A DNA stretch of 64,000 nt from Rubricoccus marinus (GTDB lineage Bacteria; Bacteroidota; Rhodothermia; Rhodothermales; Rubricoccaceae): positions 1,489,870 to 1,553,869 of the forward strand of contig NZ_MQWB01000001.1 of assembly GCF_002257665.1 (NCBI RefSeq). Reading direction: 5' to 3'. Within the stretch, counting starts at the first letter, position 1, and each line of letters starts with the position of its first letter. Below the pieces are notes generated by a model that worked only from the letters and a program-made list of their open reading frames with translations, was not told the origin of the DNA and did no database searches. A program made the position numbers and the translations under genes. This document shows, one piece after another, positions 18,165-27,604 of the stretch.

Positions 18165-19007
18165 TCAGGCGTCGTGGCGGGTGGCGCCGTTTTTCAACGT
18201 AGTGGCCCAGTCGCGTATTTCAGCCAGCCGAGCCTCTGGCGACATCTCCTCGCGCCAGAGGCGGTCGGCGAGGCGGATGAGCGCGCTGCCGACGATAACG
18301 CCGTCGGCCTCTTTTCCGAGCCGCGCGGCGTCATCGGCGGTGCGGATGCCGAAGCCGACGCACATGGGAAGGCCTCTGGCGTGGATGGCCTCGCGCGTAC
18401 GGGCGAGGTAGGCGGCCGTGATCTCGGCGTCGGCGAGCTCGGCGCCCGTGAGCCCGGCCTGCGAGACGGCGTAGACGAAGCCCGTCGCGCGCTCAGTGAC
18501 GAGTGCGACGCGGTCGGGCGCGGTGTTGGGGGCGACGAGGTAGACGGTCGTGAGGTCGTGGTGGGCGGCGGCCTCGTCGAGTTCGTCCGATTCCTCTGGC
18601 GGGAGGTCGGGGAGGATGAGGCCGTCTACCCCCGCAGACTTCGCTGCGGCGCAAAAGTCGCTCACGCCGTAGCGGAGGACGGGGTTGGCATAGCCCATCA
18701 GCGCCAGAGGCACGTCGGATTGTTGCCGGAGGCCTCTGGCGATATCGAACACGCCGTCCATCGTCATGCCTGCCGCGAGGGCCCGCTCGCTCGCCTGCTG
18801 GATGGGCAGGCCTTCGGCGACGGGGTCCGAGAACGGCATGCCGAGCTCGATAAAGTCGGCGCCGCCAGAGGCCTCGGTGCCTTCGGCTGCGGCGAGCAAA
18901 ATGTCGAGCGTGGCCTCTGGCGTGGGCGTGCCGGCGGTGAGGAAGAGACCGAGGGCGGTCTCGCCGCGGTCGCGGAGGGCGTCGAGGGTGGAGCGGAGGC
19001 GGTTCAA
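18165..19007 (-). CDS. trpA: Tryptophan synthase alpha chain
   Basis: Cleaves indole-3-glycerol phosphate to indole, which is channelled to TrpB. The 280 residues show FIELGMPFSDP with catalytic Glu54 and ILPDLPPEE with catalytic Asp134, and the phosphate-binding GFGIRTADDA. The start is a TTG at 19007 (NRLRSTLDALRDRG), the only candidate that gives the family length. It is the last biosynthetic gene of the operon, separated from trpB by a 95-base gap holding a GTACC heptad array. Confidence 0.96.
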   Translation of the reverse strand: MNRLRSTLDALRDRGETALGLFLTAGTPTPEATLDILLAAAEGTEASGGADFIELGMPFSDPVAEGLPIQQASERALAAGMTMDGVFDIARGLRQQSDVPLALMGYANPVLRYGVSDFCAAAKSAGVDGLILPDLPPEESDELDEAAAHHDLTTVYLVAPNTAPDRVALVTERATGFVYAVSQAGLTGAELADAEITAAYLARTREAIHARGLPMCVGFGIRTADDAARLGKEADGVIVGSALIRLADRLWREEMSPEARLAEIRDWATTLKNGATRHDA

Positions 19008-19017
19008 AGCGTTTGCT

Positions 19018-19080
19018 GGGTACGCGGTGCGGGGTACGTAGAAGGTGGAGACGTACCCGGTACCCCGTACCCCGTACCTC
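19018..19080. repeat. Inverted GTACC heptad arrays between trpB and trpA
   Basis: A G-rich arm (GGGTACGCGGTGCGGGGTAC) is followed by a C-rich arm with period 7 (GTACCCG, GTACCCC, GTACCCC, GTACCTC). GGGTACGT and ACGTACCC pair perfectly across 11 bases, so the intergenic RNA can form a hairpin. Confidence 0.75.
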
Positions 19081-19102: not shown

Positions 19103-20335
<1,233 letters not shown>

Positions 20336-20400
20336 CGGTGGGAAGTCTGAACCGTGTGGGGCGCGCGATGCGCCAGAGGCCAGATAAAGGGAGGCGTGGC

Positions 20401-20430
20401 GAGTACCCGGTACCTCGTACCCAGTACCTC
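20401..20430. repeat. GTACC heptad array between trpF and trpB (C-rich arm)
   Basis: Units GTACCCG, GTACCTC, GTACCCA, GTACCTC. It ends five bases before the trpF stop codon and is inverted relative to the arm at 20290. Confidence 0.75.
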
Positions 20431-20434
20431 GCCG

Positions 20435-21106
20435 CTAGGCGCCAGAGGCAGCGTGGAAGGCGTCGAAGAAGGCGGCCATCTTGTCGAAGTCCTTGACGCC
20501 GGGCGACTCCTCGACGCTCGACGCGAGGTCGACGGCGTAGGGCCGCATCGTGTCGATGGCCTCGGCGACGTTCGTGTCGTTGATGCCGCCGGCGAGAAAG
20601 AGCGGGAACTCGCGGGCGACCTGGCGCGCGAGGCGCCAGTTGAAGCTCTCGCCGGTCCCGCCCCACAGGCTGGTGTGGTGCGTGTCGAGAAGGATGAAGT
20701 CGGCGGCCTCGCGGTACGGCTCTGCGATGGCGAGGATCTGCTCGGCGGCGGCGTCGCTCACGACCTGCACGGTCTTCACGACGCGGAGGCCCGCCTCACG
20801 GACGGCCGCGCAGGCCTCTGGCGTCTCGTGGCCGTGCATCTGGGCGTGGGTGAACCCGCCCGCTTCGCACGTGTCGATCACGTCCTGCGCCTCGCGGTTG
20901 ACGAACACGCCGACGGGCTCGGGTCCGACGGCCCACTCCATGATCTCCTTCGCGTTGCGAGGGTCGATGTAGCGCGGGCTGTCCGGGAGCTGGATAAAGC
21001 CGAGGTAGTCCGCGCCATTGGCGGCGCAGAAGCGGGCGTCTTCGAGCCGCGTGATGCCGCAGATCTTGACGCGGACGCGGTCGTCTTTGGGGTCGATGGG
21101 CAGCAT
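20435..21106 (-). CDS. trpF: Phosphoribosylanthranilate isomerase
   Basis: Converts phosphoribosylanthranilate to CdRP. The 223 residues have the catalytic-Cys segment VKICGITRLEDA, the C-terminal Asp region in ILLDTHHTSLWGGTG and the phosphate-binding FLAGGINDTNV and VDLASSVEESPGVKD. The ATG at 21106 overlaps the trpC stop by one base (TGATG). Longer open sequence upstream in the same frame is a shadow of trpC and trpD. Confidence 0.96.
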   Translation of the reverse strand: MLPIDPKDDRVRVKICGITRLEDARFCAANGADYLGFIQLPDSPRYIDPRNAKEIMEWAVGPEPVGVFVNREAQDVIDTCEAGGFTHAQMHGHETPEACAAVREAGLRVVKTVQVVSDAAAEQILAIAEPYREAADFILLDTHHTSLWGGTGESFNWRLARQVAREFPLFLAGGINDTNVAEAIDTMRPYAVDLASSVEESPGVKDFDKMAAFFDAFHAASGA

Positions 21107-21945
21107 CAAGCAGGGATTGAAGCGGTGCGGGCGGCGATGGCGATGGCGGTCTCCCGGCGGAGACGAGCGAGCGCGCGACCGGGGTCCTGCTCGCGCATGA
21201 GCGACGTGCCGACAAGCACGGCGTCGGCGCCAGCGGCGTGGACGCGCGCGGCGTCGTCGCCCCCAGCGATCCCGCTCTCGGCCACCTTTGCGGGACCCTT
21301 GGGGAGTTGCGGCATCAGCCGCTCGCTCAGGCCGAGGTCGATGGAGAAGTCGGTCAGGTCGCGGTGGTTGACGCCGACGGCGTCGAGCGTCGCGAGGTCG
21401 ACGGCGTTGTGTGCCATTTCGGCTTCGGCTTCGCTGTGGACTTCGAGGAGCACGCTGAGCCCGAGCGCGTGGGCGCGGTCGACGAGTTCGGCCATCGTCG
21501 GCGCGTCGAGCGCGGCGGCGATGAGGAGGACCGCATCGGCGCCGAAGGCGCGGGCCTCGGCGATCTGGTACGGCGTCACGATAAAGTCCTTCCGCAAGAG
21601 CGGGAGGTCGACCGCGGCGCGGACCTGGGCGAGGTGCCCCAGCGAACCGCCGAACTGGCTGCTTTCGGTCAGAACCGAGATCGCGGCAGCGGCGGCGGCT
21701 TTGTAGGCGGCGGCGTGCTCGGCAGGCTTGTACTCGGGCTTGATCACGCCCTCGCTCGGGCTCGCGCCCTTGCACTCGGCGATAAACGAGAGGCCGTCGG
21801 GACGCGTGAGGGCGCGCTTGAGCGAGAGCGTCGGCGCGTGGTAGGCGCTGCGCTGCTGGAGTGCCGCCAGAGGCGTCAGGACCTCGCGTTCGGAGGCGGA
21901 GGCCCGTGCGGCGGCGACGAGGGTGTCGAGGATGGTGCTGCTCAT
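21106..21945 (-). CDS. trpC: Indole-3-glycerol phosphate synthase
   Basis: Cyclises CdRP to indole-3-glycerol phosphate. The 279 residues show the family core FIAECKGASPSEG (catalytic Glu and Lys), LLRKDFIV (Lys) and AESGIAGGDDA, VLVGTSLM for phosphate binding. The ATG at 21945 overlaps the trpD stop (ATGA). About 1 kb across trpC/trpF is nearly free of the dispersed 9-mer. Confidence 0.96.
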   Translation of the reverse strand: MSSTILDTLVAAARASASEREVLTPLAALQQRSAYHAPTLSLKRALTRPDGLSFIAECKGASPSEGVIKPEYKPAEHAAAYKAAAAAAISVLTESSQFGGSLGHLAQVRAAVDLPLLRKDFIVTPYQIAEARAFGADAVLLIAAALDAPTMAELVDRAHALGLSVLLEVHSEAEAEMAHNAVDLATLDAVGVNHRDLTDFSIDLGLSERLMPQLPKGPAKVAESGIAGGDDAARVHAAGADAVLVGTSLMREQDPGRALARLRRETAIAIAARTASIPA

Positions 21946-22982
21946 GCCGTCGCGAGGTCTGCGGTGGCCTCCACGAGCGCGTCCAGCTTGCCGAGCGCGG
22001 CGCCAGAGGCGATGCTCTCGCGGGCGGCTTCGAGCGCGTTGTCGAGCCCCTTGAACTCGGCCGATGCCAGAAGCGCGTAGGCGGCGTTGAGCAGCACGAT
22101 ATCGGCCTGTGGCCCCGAAACGCCCCCAAGGATGGAGCGCACGATCTCGGCGTTCTCCTCTGGCGTGCCGCCCTGGAGCGCGGCGGCGCTGACGCGCGCC
22201 AGGCCGAACTTCTCCGGCACGACGGTCTGCTCCAAGAGCCCACCGTCGAACGCGTCGGAGCCGGTCTGGTAAACCGTCGTGGGAGAGGTGGTCGAAAGCT
22301 CGTCCAGCCCATCGTGGGCGTAGACCACCACGACGTGCTCGCTGCCCAGCCGCATCAGGATCTCGGCCATCATGCGTGCGGTCTCGTCGGAGAACGCGCC
22401 GATAAGCTGCCGCTTGACGCCCGCCGGGTTGCACAGCGGCCCGAGGATGTTGAAGAACGTACGCACGCCGAGTGCGCGGCGGACGGGCATCACGTGCTTG
22501 AGCGCGGGGTGGAACTGCGGCGCGAACAGGAATGCGATGCCGGTCTCGTGCAGGCACCGCTCCACGCCAGAGGCGTCGAGGTCGGCGCGCACGCCGAGCG
22601 CGCTCAGCACGTCGGCCGAGCCGCTGGAGGACGACACGCCTTTGTTGCCGTGCTTGGCGACGGGCACGCCTGCGCCAGCGGCCACGAAGCTCGCGGCGGT
22701 CGAGATGTTGAACGAGCCGCTGTGGTCGCCGCCCGTCCCACAGAGGTCGATGGGGTTGAGGTCGCCCGCGTCGACGGGGATGGCGAACTCGCGCATCACC
22801 TTGGTGAAGCCGGTGAGCTCGTCGATCGTCTCGCCTCTGGCGCGGAGGCCCATCAGCAGCCCGGCGATCTCGGCCTCAGAAGCCTCGCCGCGCAGCATGA
22901 GGTGCATCGCGCTCTCGGCCTGCGGCTGGGTGAGGGTCTCGCCTTCGGCGATGGACTGAAGGATTGGTTTCAGGGAACTCAT
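21942..22982 (-). CDS. trpD: Anthranilate phosphoribosyltransferase
   Basis: Transfers phosphoribose from PRPP to anthranilate. The 346 residues include CGTGGDHSGSFNIST (PRPP loop), KHGNKGVSSSSGSADVL and HPALKHVMPVRRALGVRT, FNILGPLCNPA. The start at 22982 overlaps the four-helix-bundle stop (ATGA). A GTACC array lies directly before it, inside the end of the upstream gene. Confidence 0.96.
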   Translation of the reverse strand: MSSLKPILQSIAEGETLTQPQAESAMHLMLRGEASEAEIAGLLMGLRARGETIDELTGFTKVMREFAIPVDAGDLNPIDLCGTGGDHSGSFNISTAASFVAAGAGVPVAKHGNKGVSSSSGSADVLSALGVRADLDASGVERCLHETGIAFLFAPQFHPALKHVMPVRRALGVRTFFNILGPLCNPAGVKRQLIGAFSDETARMMAEILMRLGSEHVVVVYAHDGLDELSTTSPTTVYQTGSDAFDGGLLEQTVVPEKFGLARVSAAALQGGTPEENAEIVRSILGGVSGPQADIVLLNAAYALLASAEFKGLDNALEAARESIASGAALGKLDALVEATADLATA

Positions 22983-23413
22983 TCTGTGGTGGGGTACGGA
23001 GTACCGGGTACGAGGTACAGGTCGGATTCGTCTTCAGAGACACGACCCGTGCGGTTGCGATTGTGGTGGGCGAGAGCCCCGGTCGCGCCTGAAATCCGAG
23101 ACGCGAGGCGCGAGAGCTCATCGAACGTTTCTCGGTCGATGTAGCCGAGGTCGAGAGCAGCGTAGAGTTGAGAGCGGACCTCGCCAGAGGAGCCTCTGGC
23201 GATCAAGAGAAACCGTGCGAACTCGGCAGGGCTTCGGCGCTCGAAGCCTTCAGCGATGTTGGAGGTGATGGAGACAGCCGCGCGCTGGATCTGATCGCGA
23301 AGCCCGAAGTCTCGCGAGAATGCGCCTTCGCGTGTGACCTCGTACACACGGCGCGTCAGCTCGCGCCCGAGTTGCCATGCCTGGATGTCTTCAAAGCGCT
23401 TGAAGCCGCTCAC
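22979..23413 (-). CDS. Four-helix-bundle (23S rRNA IVS-type) protein
   Basis: 144 residues, starting at a GTG that overlaps the trpG stop (GTGA). Family traits are clear: FKRFEDIQAWQLGRELTRRV, SRDFGLRDQIQRAAVSITSN, IAEGFERRSPAEFARFL, and ARGSSGEVRSQLYAA. This family occurs in 23S rRNA intervening sequences, next to diversity-generating retroelements (Avd) and as scattered chromosomal genes; the biochemical role is poorly defined. It has no known place in tryptophan synthesis. GTACC heptad arrays flank it in inverted orientation, and the one at its end encodes its tail (LYLVPGTPYPTTE). It looks like a cassette inserted in the operon without breaking coupling. Confidence 0.88.
   Translation of the reverse strand: MSGFKRFEDIQAWQLGRELTRRVYEVTREGAFSRDFGLRDQIQRAAVSITSNIAEGFERRSPAEFARFLLIARGSSGEVRSQLYAALDLGYIDRETFDELSRLASRISGATGALAHHNRNRTGRVSEDESDLYLVPGTPYPTTE
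22991..23021. repeat. GTACC heptad array, 3' side of four-helix-bundle gene
   Basis: G-rich arm. Bases 23006-23021 (GGGTACGAGGTACAGG) are the exact reverse complement of 23424-23439. Confidence 0.85.
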
Positions 23414-24036
23414 GACGACGTACCCTGTACCTCGTACCCCGTACCCGCCCGCGCGAGCGCGGCCCGCACCCAGTTCGCCACCATCTTCGGCCCCTCCGTG
23501 GTGAGGACGCTCTCCGGGTGGAACTGGACGCCGCAGACGGGATGCGTTTTGTGCCGAAGGCCCATGATGATGCCCTCGCCTCTGGTGTCCTCGGCGCTCT
23601 CGGCCGTCACCGCCAGAGGCTCCGGGAGCGTCGCGCGGTCCACGATCAGAGAGTGGTAGCGCGTGGCGACAAAGTCGGGCTCGACGTTCTCGAAGACGCC
23701 CGAGCCGTCGTGGCGGACGCGGCTCGTCTTGCCGTGCATAAGCGCCGGCGCGTGGACCACGTCGCCGCCGTAGACCTCGCCGATGGCCTGCATCCCGAGG
23801 CAGACGCCGAAGATGGGCGTCGTGGGGCCGAGGTCGCGGATGACCGGCTCGGTGATGCCCGCGTCGGCCGGTCGGCCCGGGCCGGGGGAGATGAGGATGC
23901 CCGCCGGGTCCATCACGCGCACGTCGTCGACCGTGATCTCGTCGTTGCGGACGACGCGCATCTGGTCCGTCTCCGCGCCCACCAGGTGGACGAGGTTGTA
24001 CGTAAACGAGTCGTAGTTGTCGATGACGAGGATCAT
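23410..24036 (-). CDS. trpG: Anthranilate synthase glutamine amidotransferase subunit
   Basis: Supplies ammonia to TrpE. The 208 residues have the nucleophile Cys79 in FGVCLGMQAIG and the His-Glu pair in FHPESVLT, plus the start MILVIDNYDSFTYN. The C-terminal tail AGTGYEVQGTSS is written by the GTACC array at 23420-23446 and goes beyond the usual end. It starts 45 bases after the trpS stop; a full 9-mer palindrome lies in that gap. Confidence 0.96.
   Translation of the reverse strand: MILVIDNYDSFTYNLVHLVGAETDQMRVVRNDEITVDDVRVMDPAGILISPGPGRPADAGITEPVIRDLGPTTPIFGVCLGMQAIGEVYGGDVVHAPALMHGKTSRVRHDGSGVFENVEPDFVATRYHSLIVDRATLPEPLAVTAESAEDTRGEGIIMGLRHKTHPVCGVQFHPESVLTTEGPKMVANWVRAALARAGTGYEVQGTSS
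23420..23446. repeat. GTACC heptad array, 5' side of four-helix-bundle gene
   Basis: C-rich arm with units GTACCCT, GTACCTC, GTACCCC, GTACCC. Bases 23424-23439 pair exactly with 23006-23021. Confidence 0.85.
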
Positions 24037-24080: not shown

Positions 24081-25169
24081 TTAGCGGATCGTGGTGGCGA
24101 GGCCGGTGGCTTCGCGGACGCGGGAAAGCGTGGCGGCGGCGGCCTCTTGCGCGGCGGTCGCACCCTGGCGGAGAACGTCCCACACGTCGTCCGGACGCGC
24201 CGCTAGCTCGCGGCGGCGCTCGCGCGCTTCCGCAAACTGCTTCTCGACCATCCCGAGAAGCGCCTTTTTGGCGTGGCCGTAGCCGTAGCCGCCCGCGCGG
24301 TAGCTCTCCGCGATCTCAGCGGCCTCATCACCCCCAGCGAACAGCTTGATCAGCGCGAAGACGTTGTCGGTCTCCGGGTCCTTCGGGTCCTCCAGCGGCG
24401 TCGAGTCCGTCACGATGGACATGATGATCTTCTTGAGCGCCTTGCCCTCCTCGAAGATGGGAATCGTGTTGCCGTAGCTCTTCGACATCTTGCGCCCATC
24501 GATGCCGGGCACGATGGCGACCTCCTCCATGATGCGCGCCTCGGGAACGGGCAGGATGGGCTCGGCCTCTGGCGCGAAGACGTTGTTGAAGCGGATGGCG
24601 AGGTCGCGCGCGATCTCGATGTTCTGCTTCTGGTCGGCGCCGACGGGCACGAGGACAGGCGCGCTCGGATCGCCGTAGGCGAGGATGTCAGCGGCCTGGA
24701 GGATCGGGTACGCCAGAAGTCCACCGTTTGCCGAGAGGCCCTGCGCCACCTTGTCCTTGTACGAGACGCCCTTCTCCAACTGGCTCACCGGCGTGAGCGT
24801 GAGAAACACCCACGTCAGTTCGGTCACCTCCGGCACGTCGCTCTGCACGAACAGGTGCGCGTTCGTCGGGTCGAAGCCCAGCGCGAGGTAGTCCAGCGCG
24901 ACGTCGAACGTGAGCTGCCTCAGCCGCTCCGCATCGCGCAAGGAGGTCAGCGCGTGGTAGTTGGCGATAAAGAAGAAGGCGTCGGTGCGCCCCTCCGTGT
25001 TCGCCGCGTTGGCGATGTGCTGCCGGATCGCGCCGAAGTAGTTGCCGATGTGCAGCGTCCCCGAGGGCTGGATGCCCGAGAGGAGCGACGGCACGCCAGA
25101 GGCCTCTGGCGAAGGCGCGTCCGGCGAGGGCGCGTCTGGCGACGCGGACGTGGTGGGAGCGGCCTCCAT
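24081..25169 (-). CDS. trpS: Tryptophanyl-tRNA synthetase
   Basis: Class I synthetase charging tRNA-Trp. The 362 residues show HIGN (40-43) in PSGTLHIGNYFGA and the KMSKS loop KMSKSYGNTI. The first ~28 residues are a low-complexity extension (SPDAPSPDAPSPEASG) produced by 9-mer copies, including an inverted pair at 25092-25109. The family core begins at LLSGIQPSG. The ATG at 25169 overlaps the stop of the unknown gene upstream by one base (TAATG). Its place between trpE and trpG puts it under the trp leader. Confidence 0.96.
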   Translation of the reverse strand: MEAAPTTSASPDAPSPDAPSPEASGVPSLLSGIQPSGTLHIGNYFGAIRQHIANAANTEGRTDAFFFIANYHALTSLRDAERLRQLTFDVALDYLALGFDPTNAHLFVQSDVPEVTELTWVFLTLTPVSQLEKGVSYKDKVAQGLSANGGLLAYPILQAADILAYGDPSAPVLVPVGADQKQNIEIARDLAIRFNNVFAPEAEPILPVPEARIMEEVAIVPGIDGRKMSKSYGNTIPIFEEGKALKKIIMSIVTDSTPLEDPKDPETDNVFALIKLFAGGDEAAEIAESYRAGGYGYGHAKKALLGMVEKQFAEARERRRELAARPDDVWDVLRQGATAAQEAAAATLSRVREATGLATTIR

Positions 25170-25642
25170 TATCCGAGGTCGGCGAGCAAGGCGCGGAGCA
25201 TGTTCAGGCGGTCGTTGGACTTGTCCGCGTTGTGTCCCAGGATGGCGCGCGTACGCTCCTGGTGGTGGACGGCCTCTACCTCATCGCGCAGGCGGTCTCC
25301 GAACGCGCGGTCGCGCTCCAAGAGCGTCTTGAGGGAGTCGGTGTCGTTGCCATCAAGGCCGCTGGCGGACCAGTCCATGTCCGCACCCGTCGGGGCGCTG
25401 CCACCGAGCGAGAAGATGGTCTCGTACAGCTTGTTGAGCTCGGTGCGGACGTTGGGCAGGACTACCTCTTCGAAGCGCTGGCGCACGGCGGGCGCGTCGA
25501 GGCGCTTCGCGACGTAGTCGTAGTCGCGCAAGAGGCCGAGCTGGTCGGCGACGACGGGCACGAGGCGGTCGACGGACTCCTCGCGGGAGATGTAGTTGCC
25601 AGCGCCGCCCTTGTTGAGGATCGGCCGGAGAACAGGAAACAT
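25169..25642 (-). CDS. Uncharacterised protein in trp operon
   Basis: 157 residues, mostly helical and charged (SREESVDRLVPVVADQLGLL, RFEEVVLPNVRTELNKLYE), with no signal peptide or membrane segment. No family recognised. It lies 43 bases after trpE and is coupled to trpS (TAATG), so it should be made together with the tryptophan enzymes. The ATG at 25642 begins MFPVLRPILNKGG. Confidence 0.7.
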   Translation of the reverse strand: MFPVLRPILNKGGAGNYISREESVDRLVPVVADQLGLLRDYDYVAKRLDAPAVRQRFEEVVLPNVRTELNKLYETIFSLGGSAPTGADMDWSASGLDGNDTDSLKTLLERDRAFGDRLRDEVEAVHHQERTRAILGHNADKSNDRLNMLRALLADLG

Positions 25643-25684: not shown

Positions 25685-27235
25685 CTAGAGGAGGTCGCCA
25701 GAGGCGGTCTGGAGCGCCTGAATCAGGGCCGCGGCTTTGTGGCGGGTCTCGTCGAACTCGGCCGCCGGGTCGCTATCGGCCACGACGCCCGCTCCGGCCT
25801 GCACGTAGGCCGTGTTGTCTTTGACGACGAAGGTGCGGATCGCGATGCAGGTGTCCAACGCGCCGTCAAAGCCGGCGTAGCCGACGGCGCCCGCGTACGG
25901 GCCGCGGCGAATGGGCTCCAACTCGTCGATGATCTCCATCGCGCGAACCTTGGGGGCCCCGCTCACGGTTCCGGCAGGGAAGCACGCTGCGAGGACGTCG
26001 GTCGCTTTGCGCTCGCCGACGGCGCCGGTCACGCTGCTCACCAAGTGCATCACGTGGCTGTAGCGCTCCACTTGGGCGTAGCGCTCCAGCCGAACCGAGC
26101 CCACGTCGGAGACGCGACCGAGGTCGTTGCGCCCGAGGTCGACAAGCATCAGGTGCTCGGCGCGTTCCTTGGCGTCCGCCAGAAGCTCGTCTGCCAGCGC
26201 CTGATCGGCCTCTGGTGTCGCGCCGCGCGGGCGCGTTCCGGCGATGGGGAGGACCTCGGCGCGGCGGTCGGTCCCGCGTGGGTCCACGCGTGCCAAGACT
26301 TCGGGGCTGGAGCCCACGAGAGTGAACTGCGAGCCGTCCTCTTCGAGACCGTCCACGTCCACGTAGAAGAGGTAGGGGGACGGGTTCACCTGTCGCAACG
26401 CGCGGTACAGGTTGAAAGAGTCGCCCTCGAACGGCGTCGCGAATCGCTGCGAGAGCACGACTTGAAAGATGTCGCCCTCGGTGATGTGATCCTTGGCCGT
26501 ACGGACCGCGGCTTCGTACGCCCCGCGTTCCACGCTGGACGACGGCTCGCCCAACAGCCGGATCGGGTCGCCAGGGGCCGCTGGCGCGGTGAGGTCCGTT
26601 TCGAGCGCCAGAAGCCGGTCTTGAGCTTCCTCCCACGCACTGCGGAGATCCGTCTCAACGTCCAGGAAGACCGTCGCCATGAGAACGAGCTGGTGGCGGA
26701 CGTGGTCGAAGGCGGCGACGAGGTCGTAGAACGCCCACACGCCGTCGGGGAGGCCCAACAGGTCCGGCGGCCCCACGCCCATGGCTTCAACCTGCCGGAC
26801 TGCGTCGTACCCCACGAAGCCGACCGCGCCGCCGGTAAATCGCGGCAGGCCAGGGACGGTGGGCTGATCCACGCCTTCCAACATCGCGCCCAGCGCGTCG
26901 AACGCGGACTCGTCCACGCACTCCACGGCGTGCGGAGCCCCGTCGCCCGTGTAGGCGCCCGGCGGCCGGTGAATGAGGGAGCGCCCCCCGCGCGATTCGA
27001 TGACGAGGTACGGGCGCTTCCCGAGAAAGGAGTACCGCGCGAGCCGCTCGCCGCCCTCCACGCTTTCCAGCAGGAAGCCGAACGTCCCCGGCTCTCGTAG
27101 CGACAGGAACGCGCTGACGGGCGTCAGCAGGTCCGCCGACCGCCGCGACCACACGGGCACGGCCAGGCGGTGGCCTCTGGCGATCGCCGAGGGGAGGTGG
27201 TCAGAGACGAAGCTCTGGAAGGCGTCGAAAGTCAC
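25685..27235 (-). CDS. trpE: Anthranilate synthase component I
   Basis: Makes anthranilate from chorismate with ammonia from TrpG. The 516 residues show the chorismate-binding core: [72 protein letters not shown] and [12 protein letters not shown]. The start is a GTG at 27235, just after the attenuator T-run, giving a short or absent ribosome-binding site. The gene has almost no 9-mer copies over 1.4 kb. Confidence 0.97.
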
Positions 27236-27246
27236 GGGAAGGGGTA

Positions 27247-27276
27247 TAAAAAAAGCCCGCTGCTAGGCAGAGGGCT
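27247..27276 (-). terminator. trp attenuator terminator
   Basis: On the minus strand AGCCC and CTGC pair with GCAG and GGGCT around a CTA loop with one mismatch, followed by seven T. It lies between the leader peptide stop (27299) and trpE (27235). An upstream segment GGGCGCTC (27316-27323) can pair with GAGAGCCC (27272-27279) and block it. Confidence 0.85.
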
Positions 27277-27298
27277 CTCGGTCGGAAGCAGGACGCCG

Positions 27299-27376
27299 TC
27301 AGGCGTGCCGGGACTGAGCGCCCATCGCAGAAGCGGGGTGCCACCAGGTCCAGGCGCGGAGCGTGTCGGTCGTCAT
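27299..27376 (-). CDS. trpL: trp operon leader peptide (Trp-Thr-Trp-Trp)
   Basis: A 25-residue ORF whose codons 9, 11 and 12 are UGG (RAWTWWH). The Trp codons lie at 27352-27350 and 27346-27341. The GCGCC just before them can pair with GGCGC inside the antiterminator segment. A ribosome stalled at the Trp codons would therefore free GGGCGCTC to pair with GAGAGCCC and prevent the terminator: the classical attenuation logic. The ATG is only five bases from the TAGTTTG box, so the message may be leaderless. Confidence 0.85.
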   Translation of the reverse strand: MTTDTLRAWTWWHPASAMGAQSRHA

Positions 27377-27381
27377 GCGGG

Positions 27382-27411
27382 CAAACTACGCGCGCGGCCG
27401 GGCGGGGGCAA
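27382..27411 (-). promoter_or_regulatory. trp operon promoter
   Basis: On the minus strand TTG (27411-27409) and TAGTTTG (27388-27382) are separated by 20 bases, the Bacteroidota primary-sigma arrangement. It sits directly before the leader peptide. Confidence 0.65.
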
Positions 27412-27604
27412 CGGGCCTCTGGCGATCCCGCCCACGCCCCAGGCGGAGCCACTGCGGCGATTATTTCTGCGCGCCAGAGGCAAAGTGCGGGGGAGGCGGC
27501 CCAATTGGTCCGACGTTTGCGTGAGGCCCCGGTGTCCACGTTTTCCGCCTCCACGTCCTGACTCACGTAACGGGATGCCCCCAACCGTTACGAGAACGCC
27601 CCTC

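Follow-up and report, generated by a model that had tools for sequence, protein, structure and literature searches.

A predicted trp attenuator with a probably leaderless leader gene precedes trpE in Rubricoccus marinus and in many of its relatives

Classical trp attenuation has so far been best described in Proteobacteria and Actinobacteria. In the enterobacterial trp leader (Rfam RF00513, E. coli trpL), a short ORF with tandem Trp codons and alternative antiterminator and terminator structures lies directly before trpE. The trp attenuators of Actinobacteria (Streptomyces, Corynebacterium; trpL1 MFAHSTRNWWWTAHPAAH) have been studied experimentally and combine two or three UGG codons with a GC-rich terminator and an antiterminator that uses the 5' arm of that terminator (PMC1262725); trpL of S. 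lividans is transcribed leaderless (PMC8079986). The RNA of a third Trp attenuator, trpL/rnTrpL of Sinorhizobium meliloti, begins with the leader ATG (PMC7298713). Within the Bacteroidota, clues of leader-peptide attenuation before amino-acid operons have been reported for Flavobacterium psychrophilum, as predictions only and with no trp leader named in the main text (PMC9723704), and leader-like sORFs of unspecified kind have been reported for Bacteroides thetaiotaomicron (PMC7366714). A literature search, with most subscription journals outside its reach, found no experimentally described trp attenuator in the phylum, which is consistent with the statement in the initial annotation that none was known in this lineage. 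In the accessible literature, trp attenuation in Bacteroidota was previously only hinted at; the kind of mechanism is itself known.

The window analyzed here, a 64-kb stretch of the Rubricoccus marinus genome (Bacteroidota; Rhodothermales), carries a predicted trp attenuator before trpE. All of its elements are on the minus strand:

27406..27411, minus strand: -33-like element TTGCCC of the leader promoter, with TTG spacing conserved in relatives
27381..27388, minus strand: -7 box TAGTTTGC (TAnnTTGY/TAnnTTTG type), 4 nt before the leader ATG
27376-27299, minus strand: leader peptide ORF MTTDTLRAWTWWHPASAMGAQSRHA*, predicted leaderless, 25 codons plus TGA (ATG at 27376, TGA at 27301-27299)
27357-27353, minus strand: GCGCC, proposed region 1, whose pairing with region 2 is at chance level
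27352-27341, minus strand: Trp codons 9 (27352-27350), 11 (27346-27344) and 12 (27343-27341) in TGG ACC TGG TGG, the proposed ribosome stall site, a cluster conserved in relatives
27312..27323, minus strand: region 2, antiterminator 5' strand GGGCGCTCAGTC, within the leader ORF, its GGG starting 17 nt after the last Trp codon
27272..27283, minus strand: region 3, antiterminator 3' strand GACCGAGAGCCC, overlapping the terminator 5' arm, from 2:3 pairing and folding
27248..27279, minus strand: intrinsic terminator with seven T, conserved in relatives
25685..27235, minus strand: trpE, anthranilate synthase component I, GTG start at 27235 (TIGR00564 above cut-off)

The features of the enterobacterial leader named above recur here, and Rfam RF00513 gave no match at its gathering threshold over the window, nor any at E up to 10 over 27200-27450. 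The locus differs from E. coli trpL in that region 2 lies inside the ORF rather than after its stop, the 1:2 hairpin is not significant, the start is predicted to be leaderless and trpS is part of the operon. The actinobacterial systems share the UGG codons, the GC-rich terminator and the use of its 5' arm; they belong to another phylum and have another promoter type, and in Streptomyces trpS is under its own separate leader, whereas here it lies in the trp operon behind a single leader. The S. meliloti RNA is similar in its start at the leader ATG, which is predicted here, and differs in sequence and phylum.

The 25-codon ORF with three Trp codons that had initially been annotated before trpE was found as described, as was the terminator at 27279-27248. 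The terminator alone folds to -17.6 kcal/mol (z -3.3), a stability equalled by 2 of 200 shuffles; its stem runs to 27254, and the T run occupies 27254-27248 (7 T). The fold stability of the whole 165-nt leader is unexceptional (z -0.84). A small hairpin, CGCC UGAC GGCG (27291-27309, minus strand), nested within the predicted antiterminator fold, holds the leader stop codon in its loop.

The antiterminator segments, GGGCGCTC at 27323-27316 and GAGAGCCC at 27279-27272 (minus strand), belong to a helix that is longer than first annotated and consists of GGGC/GCCC, CUC/GAG and GUC/GAC, with single mismatches between them. For the stretch 27326-27266 the folding energy is -26.2 kcal/mol (z -1.96), and 8 of 200 shuffles were as good. 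For the window by itself the 2:3 duplex is no more than suggestive (p 0.07); the case for it rests on relatives.

Conservation was examined in the order, represented by 114 genomes in 15 families, by scanning the trpE upstream regions of 87 genomes for an ORF of 10-60 codons that has two or more Trp within 5 codons and is followed by a hairpin and a T run; the choice of upstream region and ORF and the finding of hairpins were automatic. Fifty-eight of the 87 Rhodothermales regions were positive, as against 0-3 in 20 rounds of dinucleotide shuffling and 4/87 on the antisense strand. With a stricter cut of at least 3 Trp in 5 codons there were 41 positives versus 0-1 in shuffles. The same kind of Trp-cluster scan before hisG, ilvB and leuA gave 0/63. 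By these criteria, a Trp cluster plus terminator was missing from roughly one third of the order, namely from most of families f3 and f14 and from some of f13 and f15. The element was present in 24/24 other genomes sampled in the class, and Trp leaders were found in 33 of 53 genomes sampled elsewhere in the phylum. The class and some other Bacteroidota clearly show the simple 2:3 design; many further members of the phylum fail the duplex test for it. Leaders for His, Leu and Ile/Val were also sought in relatives before hisG, leuA and ilvB, which are possibly not the first genes in their operons, and none was found apart from one chance-like Leu candidate.

The 2:3 pairing was assessed in 57 leaders. 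In 40 of them the sequence downstream of the Trp codons forms a better duplex with the 5' arm of the terminator than shuffled sequence does (p<0.05), and the leader's own terminator pairs better than the terminators of other families (p 5e-6), values that are optimistic in that related genomes were treated as independent. Because choosing the register by complementarity was to be avoided, the alignment was anchored on the GGG 8-20 nt past the last Trp codon (region 2) and on the CCC of the terminator arm (region 3). So anchored, 63% of 16 positions were paired, compared with 32-43% when the strands were slid; for the nine central pairs in 43 distinct sequences, 80.9% of cells were paired, compared with 33-46% when slid. 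Two-sided changes were seen in six of these nine pairs, and the covariation score of 0.293 was reached by none of 500 shuffles. A distance of 17 nt from the last Trp codon to the start of the GGG is shared by all five members of family f1 (the window included) and also by f4, f5, f9 and f11. Two compensatory changes are synonymous: between L116 and L119 the leader changes from GCA to GCG as the terminator changes from CCCACTGC to CCCACCGC, and between L016 and L014 AGC becomes AGT as GGCTCT becomes GACTCT. These two changes indicate that RNA pairing is selected, and not only the peptide. The median distance from the last Trp codon to the start of the helix is 12 nt, as is that from the end of the helix to the stop codon, so that in most cases the helix lies inside the leader ORF.

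The covariation check of the alternative stems that had been proposed at the outset thus has an answer: the relatives keep both the Trp codons and the 2:3 stem, and the 2:3 stem covaries, which bears out the annotated antiterminator. The weak duplex in the window alone (p 0.07) would suit a constitutive terminator lying by chance beside a meaningless ORF; with 58 of 87 regions positive against about one in shuffles, and with covariation, that reading is refuted by conservation and its probability is negligible. It could also be supposed that the leader mainly raises trpE translation by reinitiation or coupling, with a secondary role for the terminator, since Bacteroidetes have an excess of leader ORFs lying 11-14 bp before genes (PMC4833913). 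However, 63 nt separate the leader stop from trpE and include the terminator, and the Trp codons and covarying antiterminator would be left unexplained, making this supposition highly improbable.

The competing role of the 'competing GCGCC upstream' of the initial annotation found no support. GCGCC is present at 27357-27353, but its competing pairing is at chance both in the window, where GCGCC:GGGCGC is no better than shuffles (p 0.45 or 0.32), and in relatives, where a 1:2 hairpin sought in 57 leaders gave a combined p of 0.50 before the Trp codons and 0.14 when these were included. In the Salinibacter-type family f11, GCGCCCACT lies directly before the Trp codons and mirrors region 3, which is possibly the sole exception with a 1:2 signal. 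The complementarity of GCGCC to GGGCGC in the window, together with the f11 case, could be taken to favor a textbook four-segment version, in which a 1:2 hairpin forms once the ribosome leaves and protects the terminator, all else being as in the mechanism preferred below; as the 1:2 duplexes equal shuffles, this version is regarded as rather doubtful. In our view the 1:2 hairpin is a feature of the enterobacterial version and is not essential to leader-peptide attenuation in general.

The promoter had been annotated as of Bacteroidota type, and the conserved box and TTG spacing support this more tightly than first stated. A TTG lies 23-24 nt upstream of the TA of the -7 box in 49 of 57 Rhodothermales leaders, and the gap between a TAnnTTTG-like box and the start codon is 4-8 nt in 51 of 57; such a box just upstream of the leader start is also found in most class and phylum leaders. 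With a gap of this size, a leaderless mRNA is expected, or one with a 5' UTR of no more than 4 nt. As the -7 box of F. psychrophilum occupies -12 to -5 (PMC9723704), the +1 position would coincide with the A of the ATG in the window, and in most relatives it would lie 0-4 nt upstream of the ATG. From promoter geometry, therefore, the leader transcript is probably leaderless. In several other phylum members the gap is 15-16 nt, and those leaders would not be leaderless. In F. psychrophilum only 5.5% of the mapped mRNAs are leaderless (PMC9723704), and in B. thetaiotaomicron about 3.7% have a 5' UTR under 10 nt. As with S. meliloti (PMC7298713), high Trp would lead to the release of a short leaderless RNA, and the leader RNA or peptide might then also act in trans like rnTrpL/peTrpL; the peptide sequence is, however, poorly conserved outside the Trp cluster, and such a role is considered improbable.

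The genes that follow trpE in the operon are, in order:

25169..25642, minus strand: conserved 157-aa protein with no assigned function, after trpE in most Rhodothermales
24081..25169, minus strand: trpS, tryptophanyl-tRNA synthetase (TIGR00233 above cut-off; single match in the genome)
23410..24036, minus strand: trpG, anthranilate synthase component II
22979..23413, minus strand: four-helix-bundle / 23S rRNA IVP-family gene between trpG and trpD (TIGR02436, PF05635)
21942..22982, minus strand: trpD (TIGR01245)
21106..21942, minus strand: trpC (NF001377)
20435..21109, minus strand: trpF (PF00697)
19103..20335, minus strand: trpB (TIGR00263)
18165..19007, minus strand: probable trpA, read from the translation only

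The 157-aa protein, at about 32-75% identity through the order, matches no family above cut-off (a Ferritin match at E 0.013 is sub-threshold) and was not detected between trpE and trpS in the neighboring part of the class. trpS adjoins trpE in nearly every member of the order checked and in 17/17 checked in that part of the class; in family f14, trpS is not next to trpE, and the f14 leaders also have no Trp cluster. Since the operon under control contains the only TrpRS gene found, the switch is expected to set tRNA-Trp charging along with tryptophan synthesis.

Other regulators of the operon were also considered. TrpR was not found in the R. marinus genome, and TrpR-type repressor genes occur in three of 24 relatives (G032, G043 and G024), each right beside hisG. 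TRAP (PF02081) was found neither in the R. marinus genome nor in 24 genomes, and the 64-kb window contained no T-box or other Rfam cis-element; a TRAP- or T-box-regulated trp operon was rejected on these grounds. In the R. marinus genome hisG and leuA were not found and ilvB gave only a weak match (E 5.6e-7), and relatives have these genes; the organism may be auxotrophic for His and branched-chain amino acids and yet have kept its trp operon, or the assembly may have gaps.

Two repeats were observed in the window. Arrays of GGTAC units about 7 nt apart lie between trp operon genes (19019-19078, 20291-20428, 22993-23018 and 23420-23445), and these intergenic stretches hold 24 of the 25 matches in the window, where 1.3 would be expected. 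A non-palindromic 10-mer, CGCCAGAGGC, is present in 232 copies in the window (0.56 expected), for example at 27415-27424 and 27472-27481. The 4.43-Mb genome as a whole holds 14,176 copies, compared with 61 of the reversed word; copy numbers are 99 in the second genome of the genus and 8-77 in other members of the family. One-mismatch neighbors are rare, so the word is sharp; it is a species-specific HIP1-like iterated motif.

The best explanation for the locus, as initially proposed, is ribosome-mediated attenuation, given that relatives keep the Trp codons and the covarying 2:3 stem. It is very probably a classical transcription attenuator, one that would respond to charged tRNA-Trp and so control how strongly the trp operon, including trpS, is expressed. 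The transcript would begin at the leader AUG or no more than about 4 nt from it, and ribosomes would initiate on leaderless mRNA. When Trp-tRNA is scarce, the ribosome would stall on the UGG cluster; region 2, starting about 12 nt past the last UGG at the front edge of the stalled ribosome, would stay free and pair with region 3, destroying the terminator. When Trp-tRNA is plentiful, the ribosome would pass through region 2 to the stop a few codons downstream, 2:3 pairing would be blocked and the 3:4 terminator would form just before trpE. With the last UGG in the A site, the ribosome footprint would leave region 2 just uncovered, and a ribosome nearing the stop would cover it. Masking by the translating ribosome is preferred to a 1:2 hairpin because the latter gives no signal.

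The predicted leaderless start, the apparent lack of a 1:2 hairpin and the sole trpS in the operon would be the notable features of this attenuator. To our knowledge, the Bacteroidota do not use Shine-Dalgarno initiation and have a different sigma factor consensus, so that an attenuator there must work with leaderless or near-leaderless initiation, which raises the question of how transcription-translation coupling is kept. We suggest tentatively, as a possibility somewhat short of even, that this trp attenuator is ancestral, widespread in the Bacteroidota and leaderless by design, that it has no protector hairpin because the moving ribosome masks the antiterminator strand inside the leader gene, and that in Rhodothermia it sets the whole of tRNA-Trp charging because the sole TrpRS gene shares the operon. 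Classical trp attenuation is now placed across the Bacteroidota, and trpS under the same switch would form a closed feedback loop on tRNA charging itself.
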